Part shown: positions 46,883 through 47,938 of the stretch, in pieces | Numbering within the stretch: position 1 is the stretch's first letter | Layout: every line of letters begins with the position of its first letter | Assembly (NCBI RefSeq): GCF_017875735.1 | Contig: NZ_JAGGMZ010000001.1 | Span: 3,100,001-3,164,000, forward strand | DNA: 64,000 nucleotides | Direction: 5' to 3' | Source: Arthrobacter sp. CAN_C5 | Lineage (GTDB): Bacteria; Actinomycetota; Actinomycetes; Actinomycetales; Micrococcaceae | The notes under the pieces: generated by a model | The model's input: only the letters and a program-made list of their open reading frames with translations | Told to the model about the DNA's origin: nothing | Database searches by the model: none | Program-made: the position numbers and the translations under genes

Positions 46883-47789
46883 CCTGCCGCTCGGCGGCCT
46901 CCACCACGTTGGCGAGCAGCATGGCCCGGGTCATCGGGCCGACGCCACCGGGGTTCGGGGACAGCCAGGCGACGGTCGACGCAGCGGCGGGTTCCACGTC
47001 GCCGGTCAGCTTCGCCTTGCCGGTTTCGGGATCCTCCACCCGGGTGACCCCGACGTCAAGCACGATCGCGTCGGACTTGAGATCCGCGGCCTTGATCATG
47101 CCGGGGAAGCCTGCGGCGGCGACCACTACATCGGCCTGGCGCAGCAGGTGCGGCAGGTCGACCGTCCCCGTGTGGGCGAGGGTGACGGTGGCGTTGATGT
47201 CGCGGCGGGTCAACAGCAGCCCCAGGGGGCGACCGACGGTGATCCCGCGGCCCACCACGAGAACGTTCTTTCCCTCAAGGCTGATCCCGTGGCGGCGCAG
47301 CAGCTCCACGATGCCGTGCGGCGTGCAGGGCAGCGGCGAGTCGAGCGGGGCGCCCACGTTGAGGACCAGTTTGCCCAGGTTGACGGGGTGCAGGCCGTCG
47401 GCGTCCTTCTCCGGGGACATCCGTTCCAGGATGGCGTTCACGTCGAGGTGCTTCGGGAGTGGGAGCTGGACGATATAGCCGGTGGTGGCGTCGTCGTCGT
47501 TCAGCTCGTCGATGACCTTTTCCAGCTCTGCCTGGGAGATATCGGCGGGAAGGTCCCGGCGGACCGAGGTGATGCCGACCTGCTCGCAGTCGCGGTGCTT
47601 TCCGGCAACGTAGGAGTGGCTGCCCGGGTCATTGCCCACCAGGACCGTGCCCAGGCCCGGGGTGACGCCCCGTTCTTTGAGGGCGCCGATGCGGGTGGTG
47701 AGTTCGGACCGGATAGCGGCGGCGGTCTTCTTGCCGTCGAGGATCCGGGCGGTCTGGTTCTGGGCGGTCTGGTTCTGTGCGGGGCTCAT
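46860..47789 (-). CDS. folD: Bifunctional methylenetetrahydrofolate dehydrogenase / cyclohydrolase
   Basis: 309 residues from ATG 47789. Signature motifs: [23 protein letters not shown] region with the catalytic Lys, [23 protein letters not shown], and [13 protein letters not shown] for NADP, then [12 protein letters not shown] near the end. Converts 5,10-methylene-THF to 10-formyl-[18 protein letters not shown] start adds ~14 residues. It shares ATGA with the small Cys-rich gene upstream, and lies in the glyA operon behind a ZTP riboswitch-like leader. Confidence 0.96.
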
Positions 47790-47938
47790 GGGGTAATGCC
47801 AGCTTCCAGTTGCTCGAGGAGGAATGCCTTGCCCCGGTCGCAGCAACCGGTGAAGCAGCACTCGTCGGTAGGAATGTCGTAGTCGGGTGAGGCGGCCGCA
47901 GCGGAAGTCAGCGCACCCTCCGGGAGGTCTTCTACCAC
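47786..47938 (-). CDS. Small Cys-rich protein between glyA and folD
   Basis: 50 residues, too short for most gene finders. GTG start at 47938 lies inside the last glyA codons (overlapping its TAG) and the TGA at 47786-47788 sits in an ATGA overlap with folD, so it is locked between the two genes by overlaps on both sides. The peptide has an acidic Ala-rich first half, then the paired-cysteine motif [10 protein letters not shown] (Cys27, 28, 32, 33) and a helical tail [13 protein letters not shown]. Paired cysteines suggest metal or redox chemistry. No ATG start and a weak SD are the weak points. Function unknown. Confidence 0.7.

Follow-up and report, generated by a model that had tools for sequence, protein, structure and literature searches.

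A conserved four-cysteine small protein gene wedged between glyA and folD in Arthrobacter, possibly encoding a metal-binding accessory of one-carbon or purine metabolism

Short motifs with two neighbouring groups of cysteines have been described in several settings. For instance, the engineered tetracysteine tag CCPGCC carries two vicinal cysteine pairs in a short loop and binds arsenicals or metals, and the oxidoreductase-like domain PF09791 (OXLD) has a CCxxGCxxC motif followed by a helix. Cysteine codons are also found in cysteine-responsive leader peptides, in which they are the only codons under constraint. As for the genes of folate and purine metabolism, they are controlled by ZTP riboswitches, which report a shortage of 10-formyl-THF. 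Proteins that fall under the usual size limit of annotation are poorly known, and few have been tied to folate metabolism. One example, BsaP (Rv1590), shows that a metabolic enzyme can depend on a partner of this kind: this biotin synthase auxiliary protein has been proposed to hold an Fe-S cluster (PMC11099021).

The window, a stretch of 64,000 nucleotides from Arthrobacter sp. CAN_C5, contains a small open reading frame (ORF) between glyA and folD, all three on the minus strand by sequence reading. The features of the locus are the following:

47786..47938, minus strand: CC-x3-CC small-protein gene, 50 codons plus stop TGA (ORF reading; 31 of 38 genus genomes)
47932..47938, minus strand: GTGGTAG, overlap of the small-ORF start codon with the glyA stop ([AG]TGGTAG in 31 of 31 aligned rows)
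47840..47860, minus strand: CCFTGCC motif, residues 27-33 (Cys, F29, T30 and G31 identical in 31 of 31 rows)
47786..47789, minus strand: ATGA, overlap of the small-ORF stop with the folD start (sequence reading)
47932..49239, minus strand: glyA, serine hydroxymethyltransferase (NCBIfam NF000586, 592 bits)
46860..47789, minus strand: folD, methylene-THF dehydrogenase/cyclohydrolase (NCBIfam NF010789, 453 bits)
49357..49487, minus strand: putative ZMP/ZTP riboswitch (RF01750) upstream of glyA (Rfam, below the gathering score)
from 49530, plus strand: purU, divergent from glyA (NCBIfam NF004684, 394 bits)

Read directly, the GTG of the small ORF occupies 47938-47936 and the glyA stop 47934-47932, while at the other end its TGA (47788-47786) overlaps the folD ATG (47789-47787). 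The initial annotation held that the frame is open exactly from the end of glyA, which needs correcting: it is open from stop to stop over 47789-48136, or 116 codons, and no start codon precedes the GTG within it. Downstream of this GTG, the sequence holds no in-frame ATG, GTG or TTG before the cysteines, which occur only at residues 27, 28, 32 and 33. CCxxxCC is found in 2 of the 1289 six-frame ORFs of at least 25 amino acids in the window, the small ORF being one of them. As a separate observation, the FolD N-terminus encoded at 47740-47789 (minus strand) has a small tandem repeat that is absent in, for example, G005 and G317.

The same arrangement recurs across the genus. Among 38 genomes, that of the window included, 31 carry the small ORF, always at the glyA-folD place; 20 carriers (including the window's genome) and 5 more (G162, G272, G287, G307 and G314) came from searches, and 6 were read at the glyA-folD junction (G317, G318, G319, G321, G322 and G324). 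Carriers include Arthrobacter sp. H5, A. subterraneus, A. bussei and two Arthrobacter MAGs, and three of these five overlap the set of 31. In all 31, the ORF begins with ATGGTAG or GTGGTAG, and the folD ATG lies within its frame or at most 1 nt past its stop. The C-terminal tails beyond LLEQL vary in length and sequence, and so does the length of the distance from the CC motif to folD. In G011 (L010) the ORF runs on in a frame different from that of folD, while in G003 (L012:1495-2541) it continues in frame into folD without meeting a stop, a run-on that, judged from the sequence, is possibly a natural fusion.

The junctions of the other seven genomes (G001, G004, G010, G016, G300, G320 and G323) hold no small ORF. 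Four of them (G323, G016, G001 and G010), which form one clade, retain remnants of its 3′ end (GAGCAACCGAACGAGG.CGATCCGCATGAGC), so the gene was formerly present there. On a FolD tree of 45 rows (30 of the 31 carriers, the mis-extracted L012 being omitted, together with the 7 non-carriers and 8 sequences from other genera), absence of the gene requires at least 4 changes, of which well-supported branches force 3. The gene thus appears to have been lost about four times in the genus.

Selection on the frame was one of the checks proposed in the initial annotation. The mean pN/pS of the small ORF is 0.331 (31 rows, 45 columns), divided unevenly between columns 2-20 (0.541) and the core in columns 21-45 (0.162), and the N-terminal half is under looser constraint. 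Frames shifted by one or two bases on this DNA, for which 30 rows without gaps were used, have values of 1.65 and 1.79. For comparison, the ratio in the 31 carriers is 0.158 over the final 60 codons of glyA and 0.240 over 60 codons of folD; thus, the constraint on the core is like that on the end of glyA. Synonymous sites of the core do vary, with a pS of 0.47. All four cysteines are invariant in the 31 rows and, beyond these and V2, another 13 columns are identical throughout (A9, S12, A15, I22, E26, F29, T30, G31, R35, G36, K37, A38 and L41). The initial annotation had named stops, frameshifts and loss of the cysteines as evidence against a gene; all 31 carriers keep the cysteines, and none has a stop or frameshift ahead of the core. 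Since the ORF occupies the same place in 31 of the 38 genus genomes and is under purifying selection in this frame only, it is not a chance frame, and we have hardly any doubt that it is a genuine protein gene, as first proposed.

Outside the genus, we found a homologue in 6 of the 11 genomes of a single further genus, g29. The first trace came when 295 family genomes were searched with a single sequence; the weak matches in g29, once read, showed DFDLDEDCCLGGCCAKGTAYLEAVE. Profiles support the relationship in both directions: with a profile from g29 alone, the window ORF comes out on top of the 1289 frames (E 3.9e-7, the next 0.056), and a profile built from the window's genus alone (g1) finds all six g29 loci (E 3.1e-6 to 4.9e-5, the next 0.77). 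The four cysteines and the glycine of the motif are kept in all six g29 proteins, and conservation shared by both genera comprises the four cysteines, G31 and the start of the helix that follows (R/K35, G36 and A38). Joint profiles were run against samples of the family (245 genomes, 32 genera), the order (396 genomes) and the phylum (346 genomes), and convincing carriers came from the window's genus and g29 only; none of the remaining 30 genera in the family sample yielded the gene. Matches at E up to 0.05 in five further family genera were set aside, as those listed looked like chance. It is near certain that the gene is real and limited to these lineages.

The place of the gene differs between the two genera. 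Of 30 folD loci read among 41 family genomes (2 from the window's genus and 28 others), both genus loci have a CC motif upstream of folD, against none of the 28 others. In 24 of these 28, the end of glyA was recognised 95-234 nt before the folD marker, compared with 255 and 271 nt in the two genus loci; therefore, either the gene was inserted at this site within the genus or other lineages have lost it. The g29 homologue does not stand between glyA and folD. Instead, purA lies within about 2 kb downstream of it in all six loci, and biotin genes adjoin it in four, bioB being adjacent in three. The gene lies directly upstream of purA in L098 and L100, where no bio gene adjoins it among the frames listed; in L103 it is flanked by a bioD-like gene (TIGR00347, 76 bits against a cut-off of 83) on one side and purA on the other, and bioA lies farther upstream; L099 and L102 have bioB between the small gene and purA; and in L101 bioB precedes it, with purA farther on beyond opposite-strand frames. 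NCBIfam checks of PurA, BioB, BioD and BioA covered L099, L101 and L103, and the other g29 loci were assigned by likeness. At the 30 purA loci read in the 41 family genomes, a same-strand motif occurs solely in the one g29 genome; a motif near purA in L113 is on the opposite strand and was rejected as a chance match. Biotin genes come and go near the small gene and purA in g29 (L099:6756-9865, L101:6735-8249, L103:7330-12104), and the bioB products of L099 and L041 are rich in cysteine close to the C-terminus (GGCCGSGGCGG).

The small protein has no match in Pfam, NCBIfam or PDB, nor any phage or plasmid match in the libraries searched, where CC-x3-CC matched no model. The window protein hits 0 Pfam families at E up to 10, and among 33 family members compared with Pfam at E up to 1, a single one matched DUF7938 (E 0.14). 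AlphaFold2, run for the genus protein with an alignment of 30 of the 31 genus rows (L010 omitted, L012 cut to 52 residues) and 3 of the 6 g29 rows, gave a pLDDT of 85 and a pTM of 0.67, with pLDDT ranging from 66 to 85 across the five models. The predicted fold is compact, with the CC-x3-CC loop leading immediately into a helix (residues 34-46) directly after the second CC, and this model found no fold match in PDB. A less sure model of the g29 protein (13 rows; pLDDT 71, pTM 0.42) likewise places a helix, from residue 51, right after the second CC.

Upstream of glyA, the window has an RF01750 match at 49398-49487 (29.2 bits, E 0.059) that does not reach the gathering score of 39, and a conserved GGATCGCACGCCTGGG at 49357-49372 resembles the second half of the aptamer. 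Among the other 37 genomes of the genus, the regions upstream of glyA were compared with the family for 14 carriers and 2 non-carriers, and 14 of these 16 matched it at 27.9-36.2 bits, all below 39, with two matches spanning about half the model. The first aptamer half and the downstream GGATCGCACGCCTGGG are both visible in the sequence across relatives, separated by a long variable insert that may be responsible for the low scores. No match precedes glyA in G002, a carrier, or in G001, a non-carrier, while the non-carrier G004 has one; thus, with an ORF lacking the riboswitch in G002 and the reverse in G004, the two are not strictly found together. In g29, RF01750 was found in none of four regions upstream of the ORF or bioB (4 of the 6 genomes).

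The best guess that the cysteines, the gene place and the riboswitch allow is a metal- or thiol-based accessory of one-carbon or purine metabolism. Translational coupling between glyA and folD would produce the small protein and thereby lead to its co-expression with both, in a unit probably controlled by a ZTP riboswitch. The four thiols may coordinate a metal, be it Zn2+ or an Fe-S cluster. Rather than catalysing a reaction itself, the protein would then assist or regulate GlyA, FolD or a purine enzyme as a subunit. As a whole, this reading of a translated, glyA/folD-coupled, metal-binding tetracysteine protein is one that we favour tentatively, at a little under an even chance. Taken separately, a four-Cys metal site, as suggested by the conserved residues, is somewhat probable, and a one-carbon or purine partner, to which the gene neighbourhood points, is plausible at a slightly lower level than the whole. 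In its favour are the fixed place and frame, the in-frame selection, the coupling geometry in 31 of 31 carriers, the riboswitch, the proximity of purA in g29, the structural models and the run-on in G003 (L012); against it count the absence of any model or fold match in the libraries searched, the riboswitch scores below the cut-off together with the loose association of riboswitch and ORF, and the different neighbourhood in g29, with biotin genes adjoining in 4 of the 6 loci.

Those biotin genes could instead indicate an auxiliary of biotin synthase or another radical-SAM sulfur-inserting enzyme akin to BsaP, which is a small Cys protein encoded beside bioB in actinobacteria, according to the cited account (PMC11099021). 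The homologue does lie beside bioB (L099, L101 and L102, the last by likeness to L099) or the bioD-like gene (L103) in four of the six g29 genomes; L098 and L100 nevertheless lack such a neighbour. BioB exceeds its cut-off in just 2 of the 38 genus genomes, G021 and G320, with weak matches in the other 36, far below the cut-off in that of the window; G320 moreover lacks the small ORF, and a biotin role is thus not general. In addition, that account gives the cysteines of M. tuberculosis BsaP as 44, 47 and 64, not CC-x3-CC (PMC11099021). Membership in BsaP as published was thus rejected on Cys spacing and on proximity to, and co-occurrence with, bioB, and we regard a BsaP-like role as improbable. 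A thiol switch, whose vicinal pairs would form disulfides, sense oxidation and tune folate flux with no metal, is less improbable yet still unlikely: the two pairs are invariant in the 31 rows, and co-expression with the NADP-linked FolD is expected from gene order, but the protein has no CxxC, and the joint conservation of the cysteines, G31 and the helix start in both genera suits a metal loop at least equally.

The initial annotation had also offered a cysteine-sensing leader or coupling peptide, in which ribosome stalling at CC-x3-CC would lower folD translation when cysteine is short, and the overlaps with both neighbours and the two Cys pairs would fit it. This option has lost most of its ground: constraint extends past the cysteine codons to the 13 equally invariant columns, synonymous sites vary, the stretch from CC to folD varies in length, and the g29 homologue sits elsewhere. 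We consider it very improbable. A spacer for translational coupling, with no function as a protein, would agree with the repeated losses and with the closeness of glyA and folD where the family lacks the gene, but selection on the core amino acids, which matches that on the end of glyA, already contradicts it, as does the homologue at another locus in g29, and it is scarcely credible.

Returning to the metal-binding accessory, the gene serves no need of a core pathway, given its roughly four losses and its being found in only 2 of the 32 family genera sampled. A more ambitious version is speculative and rather unlikely. In it, the tetracysteine micro-proteins, which form part of a ZTP-riboswitch operon between glyA and folD in one genus and lie near purA in the other, would be a new family that links one-carbon and purine flux to the metal or redox state, each regulating a folate or purine enzyme as a subunit that responds to metal. 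The function is directly testable owing to the sharp four-Cys signature, the fixed operon place, the natural knock-outs in sister species and the second genomic setting.

The described systems resemble this protein in part. Its CCxxGCC recalls the CCxxGCxxC and helix of OXLD, although membership was rejected, as PF09791 matched neither the window protein (E up to 10) nor the 33 members (E up to 1); the sole PF09791 match in the window's genome is below the cut-off, elsewhere and antisense to a NudC-like frame. Like the CCPGCC tag, it has two vicinal pairs, but it is natural, with three residues between them and no Pro-Gly. BsaP and the window protein are both small actinobacterial Cys proteins encoded beside enzyme genes, but BsaP has at least 79 amino acids in the filter applied in its description and is mostly encoded downstream of bioB (PMC11099021), whereas the window protein has 50 and is encoded between glyA and folD.
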